64,000 nt of DNA from Pyxidicoccus trucidator (lineage in GTDB: Bacteria; Myxococcota; Myxococcia; Myxococcales; Myxococcaceae), in NCBI RefSeq assembly GCF_010894435.1, contig NZ_JAAIXZ010000005.1, forward strand, positions 496,001 through 560,000, in the 5' to 3' direction. The notes under the pieces were generated by a model. The model was given only the letters and a program-made list of their open reading frames with translations, did not search any database and was not told the DNA's origin. Position numbers and translations under genes: made by a program. Shown here piece by piece: positions 56,978-64,000 of the stretch (position 1 is the first letter of the stretch; every line of letters begins with the position of its first letter).

Positions 56978-57991
56978 CTAGAAGCTCGTGAAATCAATCT
57001 GCAGGACGGGTGTGTCCGCTTCGATGTCGCGCCGGAACCGCCCCCACCGGTCGAGCGTGCTCTCGTCGAGCACGGCCGGGTCGCGATACTGGTGGAACAG
57101 CGCGTAATTCATCGAGCGCTGGAGCGCGAGCAGGTCCGGCACGGCCGCGAGCCACTCGCGATCCATCCGTCGGAGCTCCCGATACCCTTCGAGGAACGGC
57201 CCCAGGAACGCAGCGACCGCTTCGTCGCGCGCCTCTCGAGCCTCGCCTCGCGCGATGTAGAAGAGGAGTACCGCGATGTCCTTGACGAACCACGCGTACT
57301 CGCAGTTGTCGAAGTCGAACGCGGTGATCTTCCCTTCGGCGAAGCAGAAGTTGTGCATGTGGAGATCGGCGTGGATCAGCCCGTAGCTCTCCGGTGTTCG
57401 CGGTAGCTGGTTCAATCGCGCGATGATCGCCGCGGTGCGCTCGCGAACGAGCTTCTCCTCGGGAGGCGCGAACCGGTCGATGTCGACCACGTCGTACTCA
57501 TGCCATTCCTGGCGCTTGAGCCTGGGGCTCGAAGGCGCGTAGGTCTGGGCGCGGTTGTGGAGCCGCGCGAACAGCCGGCCCATGTCGCGGAACAGGGGGG
57601 GCTGCCAGTAGCGCTCCTTGAGCGGAGGCGCGTCGTCGAAGACGATGCCCGGCGCGCGCTCGAACGCGGTGGCGACGAAGTAGCTGCCGGGCTCGCGGTC
57701 TTCGATCCGCTCCACGAACTGCCCCGAATCGGAGAGGACCGGCGAGGCGATTGGAATGCGCGCGGCGGCCAGATAGCGAACGAACTCGACCTCACCCAGC
57801 GTGTAGTCGATCGTTCGCCGCGTACTGTGCGAGATGCGCAAGATAAGGCCTTCGCCGTCGTCGTTCTCCGCCTCGTAGACGAAGTTCTCGAAGGCCGCGA
57901 GCTCGGTGAGCTGCTCGGGCGACAGGCCATACCGGCGCGCAGCCTCATCGCGAATCGGTTCGTGGAAGCGGCGGACGAGCTCTGGATGCAT
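56978..57991 (-). CDS. APH-fold small-molecule kinase
   Basis: A 337-residue aminoglycoside-phosphotransferase-fold protein. GLIHADLHMHNFCF holds the catalytic Asp and Asn, and KITAFDFDNCEYAW the metal-binding Asp; FVYEAENDDGEGLILRIS is the nucleotide-binding lobe. Related to SrkA/homoserine-kinase-like enzymes. Last gene of the export operon, 8 bases after the stop of the 582-aa gene. It could phosphorylate an exported metabolite for self-protection; that is inference. Confidence 0.85.
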   Translation of the reverse strand: MHPELVRRFHEPIRDEAARRYGLSPEQLTELAAFENFVYEAENDDGEGLILRISHSTRRTIDYTLGEVEFVRYLAAARIPIASPVLSDSGQFVERIEDREPGSYFVATAFERAPGIVFDDAPPLKERYWQPPLFRDMGRLFARLHNRAQTYAPSSPRLKRQEWHEYDVVDIDRFAPPEEKLVRERTAAIIARLNQLPRTPESYGLIHADLHMHNFCFAEGKITAFDFDNCEYAWFVKDIAVLLFYIARGEAREARDEAVAAFLGPFLEGYRELRRMDREWLAAVPDLLALQRSMNYALFHQYRDPAVLDESTLDRWGRFRRDIEADTPVLQIDFTSF

Positions 57992-57999
57992 CGAACCCT

Positions 58000-59748
58000 C
58001 TAATCCTTCAACGTGAGGCTGCTCTCACCGTAGCCCAGCACGGTCGAGGCAGAGTGGCTGGTGACCGAGACGCCCAGGCCGCGCGCGAGGGTCTCCGCCA
58101 ACGGGGGGCCATTGCGCGGCCGCGTGAACACAGCCAGGTCTGTGCCGGTCAGGGGGTGATCCGGGCGCCGGAGCCGCTGGTTCAGCATCGCTTGCTCGCG
58201 CTCGACGACGCGCAAGCACCGGCGCTCGAGGGCGAACGCGCTGGCAGTGACGCCAGCGAGCTCACCGCAGATGGGCTCCGCCACGACCTTGTCTCCCGGC
58301 AGCCCATGCGCGAAGAGCTCGGCCAGTCGCCGCTGGCTCGTGTCCTGCTCGGCGGGATCCAGCTTCGCCAACTCGTCCAGCGAGGTGCCCTGTGGCGTGC
58401 CGGGGAACGCCTCGCCGATGCGCGCGAACAACCAGCGGCTGAGCTTGATCTCGCGCTGGTATGTCTCGGCGAGTGGGAAATCGTCCCGGAGCAACGGGTA
58501 ACGCGCGACATCGATCGGCGCCTCCACGAACTCTTGCAGCGCGGTGCGCGGGAGGTGTCCGGCGAACGCCGCCCGGAGCCGTTCGTGGAGCAGCCCCTGG
58601 GTCGCGCCGAGGAAGCGGACCACCGCTTCGACGCGCTGCCCGAGCAGGCCGTAATCGATCGCGGCGTCGAGATCGCCGAGGCGCGCCGCGATGTCGGGCT
58701 GGGCCTCAATCGGTGCCGGGGCCGCGCCGGTCAACACCTGCATGTATTCGTTGATCAGCGCCGGCGGCCCGGCGCACACGCCGTGCGGACCATTGAAGAC
58801 CGCGTGACGCTCGGCATAGTCCACGATCGTTTGCACGGTGACGGGCTGCTCGGGGGCGTCGCGCACCAGGTCGTTGGTGACCAGGCGAACTCCGTCGATC
58901 AGCCGGAACATGGCCGCGAGCCCGTTGTCGAGCTCTCCGTTCGGCACCGGCTGGTTGCCCCGCACCATCACGTACCCGACCGACGCGAGCGTGCAGACGA
59001 CCATCATGTGGAGCTCGCCCGCGGTGAGCACGCCCGGGGTCCGGGGCGGCATGCGCGCGAAGAAGGCCTTGCGGAACTGCTCGGTCAGCGAGAGCAGGTC
59101 CGGCCACTGACGTGCCATGGCCTTCATCGCGGTCACGTTCATCGGGAGTTCGTTCTGGTACCGGCTCCCCGCGTAGTGGCACTGCTTGCGCACGGTGGGG
59201 AGATCGAGGAACAAGGTGCGCGGTCCGACGTTGTTCTCGCCCACTTGCCGGCCGTCACCGTCGAGCGCCGGATGCGCCACGCGGTAGACCGGCACGACCA
59301 CCTCGAGGTTCGAGAGCTCCAACGCCCGTCCGTACGCCTGCTCGGTCAGCACGGGGCAACGATTGTCGTGGGCGCTGAACGTGAGCGGCTCACGCCCGGC
59401 TGGCACCTCACCCAACCGCTCAGGGTAGGACACCGCGGTGCGGCCCGTGGGCGCATCCGAGACCCGCCTCAGCACCCGCTGTTCGATCAAGGTTTCGAGC
59501 AGGTCCCGGATCTTGTCCCAGGAATGGGGCGCGCCGTCCGACCACGCCATGGCGTCGGAGGCTTGAAATTGCTCGACCTGGAGCAGCTTCTCGCCCAAGG
59601 GCGCGATGTCCGGCTCGTCGAAGATGAGCTCCACTTCGCCATAGAAGAGGTGCAGGACCTGCTGGCCATTGCCTGCGTCGAGCCGGTCGTGCGTGAGCCG
59701 CTTTCGATTGGGAATGTAGAGCAACTCATCCGCTTGTAGCTGTGCCAT
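58000..59748 (-). CDS. 582-aa protein of unknown family in export operon
   Basis: A soluble 582-residue protein. Residues 25-100 (FYGEVELIFDEPDIAPLGEK then SWDKIRDLLETLIEQRVLRRV) look like a winged-helix, precursor-binding-like domain; the middle has WPDLLSLTEQFRKAFFARMP, and the end a Ser/Thr-rich tail. It has several conserved-looking His and Cys (NRCPVL, RKQCHYAGSRYQ) but no motif I can name. Six bases separate it from the efflux gene upstream, 8 from the kinase downstream. It may be a tailoring or binding protein for the exported compound. Confidence 0.7.
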   Translation of the reverse strand: MAQLQADELLYIPNRKRLTHDRLDAGNGQQVLHLFYGEVELIFDEPDIAPLGEKLLQVEQFQASDAMAWSDGAPHSWDKIRDLLETLIEQRVLRRVSDAPTGRTAVSYPERLGEVPAGREPLTFSAHDNRCPVLTEQAYGRALELSNLEVVVPVYRVAHPALDGDGRQVGENNVGPRTLFLDLPTVRKQCHYAGSRYQNELPMNVTAMKAMARQWPDLLSLTEQFRKAFFARMPPRTPGVLTAGELHMMVVCTLASVGYVMVRGNQPVPNGELDNGLAAMFRLIDGVRLVTNDLVRDAPEQPVTVQTIVDYAERHAVFNGPHGVCAGPPALINEYMQVLTGAAPAPIEAQPDIAARLGDLDAAIDYGLLGQRVEAVVRFLGATQGLLHERLRAAFAGHLPRTALQEFVEAPIDVARYPLLRDDFPLAETYQREIKLSRWLFARIGEAFPGTPQGTSLDELAKLDPAEQDTSQRRLAELFAHGLPGDKVVAEPICGELAGVTASAFALERRCLRVVEREQAMLNQRLRRPDHPLTGTDLAVFTRPRNGPPLAETLARGLGVSVTSHSASTVLGYGESSLTLKD

Positions 59749-59754
59749 GGCTTC

Positions 59755-61221
59755 TCACTCCCGCTGCAGTGTGACGTCGCGCGACCAGGTGCCGCCGAGC
59801 GAACGATAGACCTCGACGCGATGGTTGAGCAGCAGCCGTTGCGCTTGCAGACTCGCGCGCTCGAGCCCGACCAGATTCGTCAGGGCGGAGAGCACCGTCA
59901 GATAGTCCGATTGCCCCTGCTCGAAGAGCCGCCTCGCCTCGTCCAGGAGCTGCCGCCCGAGCTGGACCTGCGCACGCAGGCTGCGCAGGCTCGTCGCCTC
60001 GTTCTCCTCCTGGACCACGGCATCCTGCACCCGTCCGATCGCGGTGTGCAGCGCGAGCTGGTATTGGACCTCGCGACGCTGGAGCTGGATCGGCAGTCGC
60101 ATGTGCTCGGTGAATCGCCTTCCATCGAAAAGGGCCCAGGTCAGGTTCACCCCGACGACGGACTGGCCGAGGACCGGCTCCGAGAGGCCAACCTTCGCGG
60201 CGCCCACGCTGCCCACCACTTGAATCGTCGGAAGCCAGCTCGCCCGGTTCGCGTTGATGCGGTGCCCGACCTCGGCGAGGCGCAGCTCCGCGAGCCGCAT
60301 CTCGGGCGTGTTCACGTTCAGGTCGCCTGGCGTTCCGAGCTGTGGCGGAGGCGGGAGATCGGGAAGCTGTCGCTCCAGTGGAACGATGTCGTCCGCGGGG
60401 CTGGGTACCCGGCCCAGCAGCGCCTTCAGCTCCGAATTCAAGAGCGCGTTCCGGGTGGAGATCAGCGGCACCTGCGATTCGAGGTTCACCAGCAACTGCT
60501 CCTGCTGCAGCACCGCGAGCCGGGGCGTGAGGTGCTGCTCGAACCGCGCTCGAATCAGCCGGAGCAGCTCCTTGTTGTAGTCGATCTGCCGCAGCGTGAG
60601 GTCCCGGAGCGCGCGGGCCTCGAGGATATCGAACCAGACCTGGGTGATCCGCAGCGCGAGGTCCTGGACGCGGGCCTCGGTGAGCTGCCGCTGCTGCTCG
60701 GCGAAGTTCAATCCCGCGCGCCGCTGCGCAGCGAGGTTTCCGAACAGGTCGACCTGGTAGGCCACGCCGAAATCGGCGGTGGCGATGTCGTACTCGACCC
60801 GGGTTGCCGGCGCGGGCGGAACGATGGCGATGACATGATTCAGCCCCGCCGGGTTGAGGATGCCGACCTGGAGCGGGTACCACCAACCTTGCGGCACGTT
60901 GGGGTCAAGCTGGTTCTCGTAGATCAGCTCCCGCACGTCGCGCAGGACCAGGCTGTTGCTGAAGCACTCCTGGATGGCCGTGTCGAGAGCGGGATCGGCG
61001 AACGCCGACCACCAGACTGTGTCCTGGGTGACGCGCTCGGCTGGCTGCGCGGGCACGCCCTCCTTCGACGGCTGCGGGCTTGGAACCCCGCCCCCGGTGC
61101 GCAGATCGACGGCGGTCGAGTAGCTGCTCGGCGCCGGAGGCGGTTTGACGACGACGGGACGGATCACCTCGCAACCGGCGCAGAACGTCGTGAGGAGGGC
61201 GAGCGCAAATCGAAGTCTCAT
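59755..61221 (-). CDS. Outer-membrane efflux lipoprotein (OprM/TolC type)
   Basis: A 488-residue protein with lipobox CAGC (Cys 17) and two tandem OEP domains (about 130-290 and 310-480), long amphipathic helices rich in Leu, Gln and Arg. VWWSAFADPALDTAIQE, then NSLVLRDVREL, matches the N-terminal signature of NodT/OprM lipoproteins. ATG 61221 overlaps the stop of the ABC gene by four bases (ATGA). Forms the outer channel of a type I-like exporter; no membrane-fusion protein gene is visible within the window. Confidence 0.9.
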   Translation of the reverse strand: MRLRFALALLTTFCAGCEVIRPVVVKPPPAPSSYSTAVDLRTGGGVPSPQPSKEGVPAQPAERVTQDTVWWSAFADPALDTAIQECFSNSLVLRDVRELIYENQLDPNVPQGWWYPLQVGILNPAGLNHVIAIVPPAPATRVEYDIATADFGVAYQVDLFGNLAAQRRAGLNFAEQQRQLTEARVQDLALRITQVWFDILEARALRDLTLRQIDYNKELLRLIRARFEQHLTPRLAVLQQEQLLVNLESQVPLISTRNALLNSELKALLGRVPSPADDIVPLERQLPDLPPPPQLGTPGDLNVNTPEMRLAELRLAEVGHRINANRASWLPTIQVVGSVGAAKVGLSEPVLGQSVVGVNLTWALFDGRRFTEHMRLPIQLQRREVQYQLALHTAIGRVQDAVVQEENEATSLRSLRAQVQLGRQLLDEARRLFEQGQSDYLTVLSALTNLVGLERASLQAQRLLLNHRVEVYRSLGGTWSRDVTLQRE

Positions 61222-63329
61222 GGATGGCTGACGACCACGAGGGCTTTGGCGTGGTTGAGGACGCAGCGCTGCGCGACCCGCATGGTCTCGGGATCGAGGG
61301 AGGCGAAGCTCTCGTCGAGGATGACCAGCTCGACCCCCTGCAGCAGCGTGCGCGCGATGTAGAGCCGGCTCTTCTCGCCGTGCGAGAGTTGCCAGCCGGT
61401 CTCGCCTATCATCTCCTCGAGGCCGGCGGGCATCTTGGCGACCAGCTCGTCCAGCCCGAGCTCCTTGCACAGCGCGGCGGCCTTGGTCCGCAGCTCGGGC
61501 GAGGTCGGCCACTCGCGCCCGAGCAGGAGGTTGTACGCGAAGCTGCCGGACAGGACGTGGTTCTCGTGGAACTGCGGCGCGGCGGTGATGCGCTTGCGCC
61601 AGCCCGAGGAGCCGAACGTCGCGCGGTCCAACGCGTGCAGCAGCATCACCCCGCCCTGCGGCGTCCTCATGCCCGTGAGCAGCGACACCAGCGTCGACTT
61701 GCCACCGCCGGATGGGCCCTCCAGCAGGATGCGGTCGCCCTGCGCGATCTGGAACGAGCAGTTCTCGAGCACCGGCCGGGTGCGCGCGTCGTGCCGGAAG
61801 GTCACGCCCCGCGCCTCGATGAGGGCTCCGCCGGCGGCGTCGGTGGGCTTGCCTCCCTCCATTTCGAGAGGGACTTTCGATTCGAGCTCGGGGCGGCCCA
61901 CCGCGAGCAACAAGTCGCGGATCTGCTCGAACGACACCGCCGCCTGGGAGACCTGCTGGAAGAAGACGGCGACCTCGTCGAAGGCTCGCAGCGCGAGCAG
62001 GATGCCGCCCACGGACACCGCCAGCGCGCTGGCATTGGCCGTACTGCTGCTGAACGCCGGCAGCAAGGTCAGCAGGGCGAGCACCAACCAGCCGTCGCGC
62101 AGGAGCGCGGTCAGCTGCATGGTCCGGCGATCCATGACCTTGGAGATCTCGGAGTAGGAGCTCAAGCGGACGTCTTCGCCATCATGCCAGCGCTCGAGTG
62201 GGAGCTGCGCCAGCCGCGTTCGATGACCGAGCATGCGCTCGAGCAGGTCGTGGGTGATCTCGACGCGCGCGCTCGACCACGCCCGCTGGACGCCGTAGTG
62301 GCGGCGCGCGAGGACGAACGCGACCACGACCCACAGGACGAGCACTATCGCCTGGGGCCACCCTCCCGCCCCGAGCACGAGGATGACGCCCGCCAGGACC
62401 AGGTCGACGAGCGACAACACCGCGAGCAGGGCGCCGCCGACCGCGAGCTGCTCGACGACCTCCGCCTCGGCGACGCGGCCGAAATGGCGGCCGATACCGT
62501 CGAGCCGCACCTCGTCGGGGGTCAGCTTGAGGGTTCCCGCGAGGAGCTGCTGCTTCAGCAGCGTTCCGAGCCGGATCGAGAACACGCCCTGCCACCACAC
62601 CTCGAGCATGCGCAGCGGAATCGCGCAGGCAATCACGGCGATCCACCCCAGGAACCAGCCGGTCTCGAGGTGGGCCTGGAGCGCGGCGCGACCGAGCAAC
62701 CAGAACGAGGCAGCCAGCACCAGCGAGAGGAGCGTGTGGCTCACGAGGATGCCGGCGACGAGCGACGGGATGTCGCCGAGCAGCGTCCGCCGACTCGCGG
62801 TGCGTCTGGGGCGCATGATCCAGCCAGTGCGCAGCTGCACCTGGCCGAGCCGCTGCAGCAGCATCTGGGAGCGGGCGTGCTCGCGCGCACGGGGCGACAT
62901 CTCCACGCCGCCGAGCAGCTGGTCCACCTCGGCGACGGTGGCTTCCTGCTCTTCGCGCAGGAGCGCGAGCGCGCTCTTCGTCGAGACCGAAACCGCCGTG
63001 GCGTCGCGCGCGAGCAGGCGCAGCTTCCCGCGCCGCGTCCCCAGCAGCACCAGATAGGACGGGACGCCGTCTCGCCGGACCTGGAGGATGCAGGGCGCGG
63101 CGCGTTCGAGGACGTCGGGCAGCTCGTGGTAGAGCGGCGTGATCGGCTCGAGCTCCACGCCAAGTCGATCTCCGAGCGCGAACATCCAGACCCGGCTCGG
63201 CTCGACGGCCGCCGCGGGCGGAGCGATCTCACCCGCGGCCCTGCCATAGCCTTGCCTCTGCGCCAGTTGCTCCAGCGCGTCGGGCAGTCGCTCGACCGGC
63301 CACAACAAGTCGGAGTGCGAGCGCGTCAT
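61218..63329 (-). CDS. ABC exporter with extended N-terminal domain
   Basis: A 703-residue fused permease/ATPase. Residues 1-150 form an extra soluble domain (LWPVERLPDALEQLAQRQGY, then VPSYLVLLGTRRGKLRLL), reminiscent of a C39 peptidase-like module but without the Cys/His pair. About six membrane helices follow (160-430). The ATPase has Walker A GPSGGGKST, signature LSHGEKSRLYIAR (His replaces Gly in LSGGE) and Walker B LVILDES. ATG 63329 overlaps the previous stop (ATGA). Resembles ABC pairs of NHLM-type peptide export systems. Confidence 0.85.
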   Translation of the reverse strand: MTRSHSDLLWPVERLPDALEQLAQRQGYGRAAGEIAPPAAAVEPSRVWMFALGDRLGVELEPITPLYHELPDVLERAAPCILQVRRDGVPSYLVLLGTRRGKLRLLARDATAVSVSTKSALALLREEQEATVAEVDQLLGGVEMSPRAREHARSQMLLQRLGQVQLRTGWIMRPRRTASRRTLLGDIPSLVAGILVSHTLLSLVLAASFWLLGRAALQAHLETGWFLGWIAVIACAIPLRMLEVWWQGVFSIRLGTLLKQQLLAGTLKLTPDEVRLDGIGRHFGRVAEAEVVEQLAVGGALLAVLSLVDLVLAGVILVLGAGGWPQAIVLVLWVVVAFVLARRHYGVQRAWSSARVEITHDLLERMLGHRTRLAQLPLERWHDGEDVRLSSYSEISKVMDRRTMQLTALLRDGWLVLALLTLLPAFSSSTANASALAVSVGGILLALRAFDEVAVFFQQVSQAAVSFEQIRDLLLAVGRPELESKVPLEMEGGKPTDAAGGALIEARGVTFRHDARTRPVLENCSFQIAQGDRILLEGPSGGGKSTLVSLLTGMRTPQGGVMLLHALDRATFGSSGWRKRITAAPQFHENHVLSGSFAYNLLLGREWPTSPELRTKAAALCKELGLDELVAKMPAGLEEMIGETGWQLSHGEKSRLYIARTLLQGVELVILDESFASLDPETMRVAQRCVLNHAKALVVVSHP

Positions 63330-64000
63330 CCCACCAGCTCCAAGCCGCCTGCGCCGGGCTCCGCGACCGGCGTCTCCACGGGCTTCGGTGCCGGCCTCTC
63401 CACCAGCTGGCCGTCCGAAAGCCACCAATGGCGCCAGTGCCCACCGCCCCAGAGCAGCGTGCGATTCTCCTGGTCGGCGCGAAGGAGCACGGCGTACCGC
63501 GACTCTTTGTTCGCGAGCAGCTCCTTCGGCGACCCGTTCTCGAGGATCCGGCCGTTCTCGACCACGAGCACGCGATCGAACTCCTGGGTGTGCTCGACGT
63601 CGTGGGTGACACAGAGGAGCGTGATGTCTGCCCAGAGCCGCCGGGACTCGGCGAGGAGCCGCGCGCGCCGGTCGCGATCGAGACCGCGAAAGGGCTCGTC
63701 GAGGATGGCCAGGCGCACGCCGGAGCGAAGCATCGCGCGCGCCAGGCGCACGCGCTGACCCTGGCCGCCCGAGACCAGCCCTCCGCCTTCGCCCAACGAC
63801 GTCTGCAGCCCGTCTGGAAGCGCCTCGAGGATGTCGAGCATCTCGGCGCCCTTGAGCGCCCCGGACAGTGACCAGCCGTGCGCGCCATCGTTGCCATACC
63901 GGAGGTTGTCGATGAGGCTCTGGTTCCAGAGACTGATCGCCGGATCCACCCAGGCCGTGGTGCGCCGCAGCCGCTCGACAGCGGCCTGATCGAGCACCTG
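63326..64000 (-). CDS. ABC exporter ATP-binding part, truncated at window edge
   Basis: The C-terminal 224 or so residues of an ABC protein whose 5' end lies beyond 64000. Visible: Q-loop region WVDPAISLWNQSLIDNLRYG, signature VSGGQGQRVRLARA, Walker B LAILDEPFRGLD, and the switch His in THDVEHT. Walker A and any membrane domain are outside the window. First visible gene of the export operon; stop overlaps the next start. Confidence 0.88.
   Translation of the reverse strand, partial: QVLDQAAVERLRRTTAWVDPAISLWNQSLIDNLRYGNDGAHGWSLSGALKGAEMLDILEALPDGLQTSLGEGGGLVSGGQGQRVRLARAMLRSGVRLAILDEPFRGLDRDRRARLLAESRRLWADITLLCVTHDVEHTQEFDRVLVVENGRILENGSPKELLANKESRYAVLLRADQENRTLLWGGGHWRHWWLSDGQLVERPAPKPVETPVAEPGAGGLELVG

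Follow-up and report, generated by a model that had tools for sequence, protein, structure and literature searches.

Ribosomally synthesized and post-translationally modified peptides (RiPPs) exported by peptidase-containing ATP-binding cassette transporters (PCATs), such as lanthipeptides and the Nif11/NHLP group, have a C39-bearing ABC exporter with an intact triad, a leader ending in small residues and a modifying enzyme in the operon; in ThcOx, TruD, McbB and TigE, a RiPP recognition element (RRE) is fused to a larger domain. Prochlorosin-type systems have many scattered precursors, and thioamitides and class V lanthipeptides are kinase-dependent RiPPs. The locus described here lies at the end of a 64,000-nucleotide stretch of Pyxidicoccus trucidator DNA (the window; assembly GCF_010894435.1, contig NZ_JAAIXZ010000005.1, positions 496,001 to 560,000, forward strand) and continues beyond it; its central gene encodes a 582-residue protein, U582. 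Similar to PCAT-exported RiPPs, the locus combines a C39-ABC exporter with an intact triad, leaders ending in small residues and a probable modifying enzyme; unlike them, its leader has 10 residues and no hydrophobic −7 position, U582 matches none of the tested families by profile, and a second ABC protein and a TolC-type channel are present. In its workings the U582 system resembles the PCAT-exported RiPPs, and it probably belongs to them. Similar to ThcOx, TruD, McbB and TigE, U582 is predicted to begin with a winged helix of about 100 residues that resembles an RRE and is fused to a larger domain; unlike theirs, the larger domain consists almost wholly of helices and matches nothing by sequence or fold, and the RRE is recognizable by structure alone.

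As a whole, the locus is best read as a RiPP-type pathway centred on U582, a maturase family that had no earlier name, and we hold this reading with considerable confidence. That the locus is a RiPP-type system of some kind is very likely; that U582 modifies the peptide core is likely, to a lesser degree; and the placement of the modification at K-x-R or Arg-Cys is tentative, with slightly more doubt than belief attached to it.

The original prediction described five minus-strand genes joined by ATGA overlaps or 6-8-base gaps, and the open reading frame coordinates bear this out: ABC1 and ABC2 overlap at 63326-63329, ABC2 and the outer-membrane channel (OMF) overlap at 61218-61221, both as ATGA, and gaps of 6 bases (59755/59748) and 8 bases (58000/57991) separate OMF from U582 and U582 from the APH kinase. 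Extension of the contig completes the operon as HlyD, ABC1 (C39), ABC2, outer-membrane channel, U582 and APH kinase. The features are listed below; adding 51999 to an L002 coordinate gives window numbering.

L002:15488-15535, plus strand: putative precursor minigene 1, MKIKLHVRGGPKARS; hairpin at L002:15593-15625
L002:16599-16643, plus strand: putative precursor minigene 2, MKIKLHVRGGPKAR; hairpin at L002:16704-16736
58000..59748, minus strand: U582, 582 aa, proposed RRE-fused peptide maturase; RRE-like winged helix at about residues 1-100, helical domain at about 120-582
63326..64000, minus strand: ABC1, 3′ part inside the window; the whole gene (909 aa) is L002:11327-14056, reaching 66055 in window numbering; PF03412 (Peptidase_C39) E=7e-15, ABC_tran E=2e-23
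61218..63329, minus strand: ABC2, ABC exporter, 703 aa; ABC_tran E=7e-19, N-terminal region without a detectable C39 domain
59755..61221, minus strand: TolC/OprM-type outer-membrane channel (OMF), 488 aa; PF02321 (OEP) E=5e-26
56978..57991, minus strand: APH-fold kinase, 337 aa; PF01636 E=1e-23
L002:14059-15276, minus strand: hlyD, encoding a 405-aa HlyD adaptor, beyond the window end; HlyD_3 E=8e-13
about L002:15980-16387, minus strand: decayed 5′ copy of hlyD, a remnant read from sequence

Two open reading frames of 15 and 14 codons, divergent from the operon, stand in front of hlyD past position 64000; small precursor genes and an HlyD-type gene are what the original prediction had advised looking for upstream. 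They encode the peptides MKIK[LI]HVRGGPKAR(S/A), and the second belongs to a tandem duplication in which the copy of hlyD has been cut short and has decayed. All 16 own-type copies (those of the window's own U582 clade), which come from 12 loci, have the identical ribosome-binding site GAAAGGAGG, and their variation within codons 1-14 is synonymous, mostly at third positions, with the exception of codon 5 (Leu/Ile); the flanking sequence is far more variable. The minigene unit ends in a terminator-like hairpin, about 17-18 pairs long and followed by a short tail that contains T; its folding beats 200 of 200 shuffles, and two pairs are preserved through changes on both sides. A sigma-70 scan upstream of the minigenes found no promoter; the motif TTGACAT is conserved there. 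At 14-15 codons, the minigenes are expected to be overlooked by gene finders.

The minigenes and U582 occur together, genome by genome. A degenerate 29-base pattern for the start of the peptide, ATGAARRTHMARNNNNNNVTNMRNGSNGGN, has two matches in the 12.67-Mb genome, both at the U582 locus, and its reversed control has none. Among 147 genomes of the class, the pattern is found in exactly the 30 that encode a full-length U582 and is absent from the other 117, with no match to the reversed pattern in any of the 147; these genomes are related and hence not independent tests, and the correspondence holds for every one. The few genomes with weak or RRE-less U582 homologs have no matches. The matches are located at U582 genes and, in three genomes (G120, G043 and G044), at unlinked places too. 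In particular, G120, a genome of the window's own genus, has 16 matches, many unlinked to its two U582 genes (L140-L149), and its Cys-containing cores include PRSCGPAPVLA and PRGCAYVIL; the unlinked peptides are candidate trans-acting precursors. Similar to prochlorosin-type systems, G120 has its matches spread over many loci; unlike them, the leader, the enzyme and the size class are different, and the own-type clade has one nearly invariant peptide.

Moreover, similar peptides, with the leader MK[IV]K[TS]xVR[GA]G, adjoin distant U582 homologs in Archangium, Methylococcales, Ramlibacter, Alphaproteobacteria, Nitrosomonas and Nitrospira, with one to several beside nearly all homologs of about 30-41% identity. 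The 83 distinct precursors share a 10-residue leader (MK[IV][KQ], then mostly [TS], a variable residue and [VIL][RK][GA]G; 8 of 10 positions strongly restricted) followed by a hypervariable core. Arg occurs in 81 of the 83 cores and Cys in 72, as in MKIKTKVRGGPRGCGPGGISIWYDEV; in 71 of these 72, Arg lies no more than two residues from a Cys, while 5000 shuffles gave a mean of 18 and a maximum of 34. The own-type cores and those of G010, a genome from another bacterial family with four precursors (MKIQTNVKAGLTKIR, MKIQTNVRAGVLVKGR, MKIQTNVKAGMKIR and MKIQTNVRAGLIAVKGR), have no Cys but do have K-x-R. The NPQPDPPG-type peptides of G043 and G044 are exceptions. Orphan peptides (MKVKTHIRGGFNPQPDPPG and relatives at L150:8016, L150:8108 and L151:8245) have the common leader; all three cores are without Cys and two are without Arg. 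The precursors at L089:11871 and L096:11839 have a very long glycine run after GGRCS. The short peptides match nothing in Pfam or NCBIfam. The leader starts MKIKTN, MKIKSN, MKVKTN, MKIKTK, MKIKTR and MKVKSN occur in no paper of the open literature searched, subscription journals being mostly outside the search; likewise, no description of this peptide and maturase class was found in the open literature, and a prior one in subscription journals is possible.

The gene arrangement is not due to chance, since each of the 14 own-type loci examined (this one and 13 ortholog loci) has the six-gene order HlyD-ABC1-ABC2-OMF-U582-APH, which recurs around a 54%-identical U582 in G010; conserved gene order was among the checks that the original prediction proposed. 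A record labelled Comamonas sp. KCTC 72670 has a Myxococcus-like copy of the operon (L078; U582 93% identical) and is probably mislabelled, its coordinates matching a genome of the window's own genus. The C39 catalytic Cys, His and Asp of the exporter are kept in 28 of 28 cluster-linked exporters. The 'non-catalytic N-terminal module' earlier assigned to ABC2 is, on a by-eye reading only, a degenerate C39-like stretch. The OMF scores 128 bits against TIGR01845, under that model's cut-off.

A double-glycine leader ends in a GG-type motif, and its positions −4, −7 and −12 are hydrophobic (PMC10885120). The precursor leaders described here end in GG or AG, have V, I or L at −4 and Lys or Gln at −7, and are too short for a −12 position. 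The trio of C39-bearing ABC1, ABC2 and HlyD, together with NHLM_micro_ABC1 as the best NCBIfam model of ABC1, would fit an NHLM or double-glycine bacteriocin export cluster with accessory genes, a likeness that had been drawn in the original prediction. However, all three NHLM models score far under their cut-offs (TIGR03796 187, TIGR03797 102-177 and TIGR03794 45 bits, against 853, 709 and 156), the 10-residue leaders are unrelated to Nif11 or nitrile-hydratase leaders, and U582 and the kinase are constant parts of the system; no NHLP-type long leader is present in the precursor and no NHLP or Nif11 precursor was seen in the cluster. Membership in NHLM was rejected, and we give this explanation very little credence.

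U582 and 28 homologs gave nothing usable against Pfam and NCBIfam. Nineteen residues are invariant in 49 homologs at about 30% identity (D163, R167, G170, E171, C190, G194, R196, N204, W215, R226, G286, V324, C325, A326, G327, P328, Y366, Q519 and P548). Structure prediction, proposed earlier for 58000-59748, yields an RRE-like N-terminal domain and a helical remainder with no PDB fold match: residues 1-100 form a winged helix that matches the RRE domains of ThcOx (Z 7.2), TigE (6.6) and McbB (6.4), and the C-terminal model is confident and mostly helical (pLDDT 87.7, pTM 0.90). Foldseek and VIA-align searches with the full-length model matched the N-terminal domain alone, and a PDB sequence search with two U582 profiles returned coiled-coil or helical-bundle background only. 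Profile comparison showed no homology of U582 to tryptophan dioxygenase (PF03301; hhalign probability at most 1.3%, compared to 100% for a control between U582 subgroups), with which it may still share a fold relation, and none to MNIO (PF05114; at most 0.2%).

Two shorter U582 homologs lack the RRE and retain the invariant residues. They lie among genes for AMP-binding, thioesterase, CmcI-like and PRMT-like methyltransferase proteins (L067:8838-10136 and L068:8810-10210), where the U582 catalytic domain is apparently used in another natural-product context. Such neighbours suit an amino-acid-modifying enzyme. Together with the retention of the invariant residues in the absence of the RRE, they suggest that U582 acts in tailoring and not as a protease of the leader.

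The own-type peptide is nearly invariant, core included, across Myxococcus, Corallococcus and one further genus, as a signal would be, and NtrC-type two-component genes accompany many Proteobacterial clusters; a C39-cut, secreted but unmodified pheromone, with U582 as a peptide-binding chaperone or regulator and no enzyme, would fit both. This explanation is unlikely: it is at odds with the 19 invariant residues, which include two Cys and charged or polar ones, with the RRE-less homologs among biosynthetic genes, and with the MauG-type di-haem enzymes found in several clusters. MauG-type di-haem enzymes are typical of residue oxidation.

The APH kinase is 95-99% identical in own-type orthologs and 71% identical in G010, making it the best-conserved operon protein between the two families. 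Together with its APH fold and the TolC-type channel, this conservation would suit a small-molecule efflux or self-resistance operon in which the kinase inactivates a drug, the exporter removes it, and U582 and the minigenes are incidental. Against such an operon stand the exact genome-by-genome co-occurrence of minigenes and U582, including U582 loci without APH and OMF, and the conserved C39 peptidase, which make it highly improbable. Returning to the RiPP-type pathway, the locus resembles the kinase-dependent RiPPs in having an APH-fold kinase beside a maturase; unlike them, its commonest own-type peptides have no Ser, Thr, Tyr or Cys. The shared MKIK[LI]HVRGGPKAR has none of these residues, and only the PKARS variant ends in Ser. 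Dehydration by a kinase and lyase of the LanK or thioamitide type was rejected, MKIK[LI]HVRGGPKAR having no Ser/Thr substrate residue; it is unlikely that the kinase phosphorylates Ser or Thr on the peptide before its modification, since most own-type peptides have neither residue. The kinase target may instead be a group made by U582, a Lys, Arg or His nitrogen, or another molecule.

Besides the window's own genome, 22 genomes of Myxococcus, Corallococcus and one further genus encode U582 orthologs that are 90-96% identical. Homologs with about 30-41% identity are found at further Myxococcus and Archangium loci, as well as in Methylococcales, Ramlibacter, Rubrivivax, Roseateles, Alphaproteobacteria, Nitrosomonas and Nitrospira. 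The tree sets the own-type clade, which has APH and OMF, apart with good support. Outside Myxococcia the family is patchy: of 300 genomes drawn from the Ramlibacter relative's order, none but the relative's own had the enzyme. U582 belongs to a family of probable peptide-modifying enzymes, without a description in the open literature searched, that occurs in myxobacteria, Proteobacteria and Nitrospira. Clusters of the Ramlibacter and Devosia types have an added histidine kinase and NtrC-type regulator pair. A MauG/MbnH-type di-haem enzyme lies near U582 at ten loci (L058, L061, L062, L064, L066, L071, L081, L082, L091 and L112), detected by blast in all ten and by Pfam on two members.

In the proposed pathway, the minigene would be translated and its leader, MKIKxHVRGG (the first 10 residues), would dock on the RRE-like N-terminal domain of U582, whose helical domain would modify the core, most likely at K-x-R in its own clade and at Arg-Cys in the majority of the others. 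Cleavage after Gly-Gly (GG or AG in the wider family) by the C39 domain of ABC1 would follow, and ABC1/ABC2, HlyD and the OMF channel would export the short product from the cell. The APH kinase may act late, on a group created by U582 or on the product, as a tailoring or self-protection step.

Several results weigh against this pathway. The helical domain of U582 resembles no enzyme of known function, and its model compared to PDB folds gives nothing over background (best Z 5.5), which is no proof of a new fold. In structure, the N-terminal domain comes closest to the MINA53/NO66 winged helix (Z 9.6) rather than to an RRE, and the Pfam RRE and PqqD models give it no match; the RRE assignment, made from predicted structure, is of moderate strength for this reason. 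Further, the 10-residue leader lacks the −7 hydrophobic residue of C39 substrates, AG often replaces GG, the own-type core after GG would have just 4-5 residues, and around several U582 genes there is no exporter for about 8-9 kb. The original prediction is partly supported: its proposal of an exported peptide and a kinase that may tailor it was right, as was its advice to look upstream, where precursor genes and HlyD were found, and the NHLM likeness was not borne out. Neither of the outcomes that it named as refuting was seen, since the region upstream holds no ordinary known cluster and U582 belongs to no named family; that U582 is the hallmark of a wider family with a precursor type of its own was not visible from the window. 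A bolder possibility, to which we lean slightly less than to its opposite, is that U582 founds a new superfamily of enzymes whose fold is absent from the PDB, with an undescribed modification at Arg-Cys (or Lys-x-Arg), an exceptionally short leader and, in some myxobacteria, unlinked minigenes served in trans.

If the proposed pathway is true, the locus would represent an additional RiPP class whose precursors, at about 14-60 codons, are easily overlooked by gene finders; U582 would be its family-specific enzyme marker, and a simple DNA pattern would locate its precursors genome-wide. It would also provide an enzyme that is open to testing and has no known relative in fold, and a 14-residue precursor that is within reach of peptide synthesis. 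For Myxococcus and Corallococcus, it would add a nearly invariant candidate secreted peptide, which may be a signal or a defensive product.

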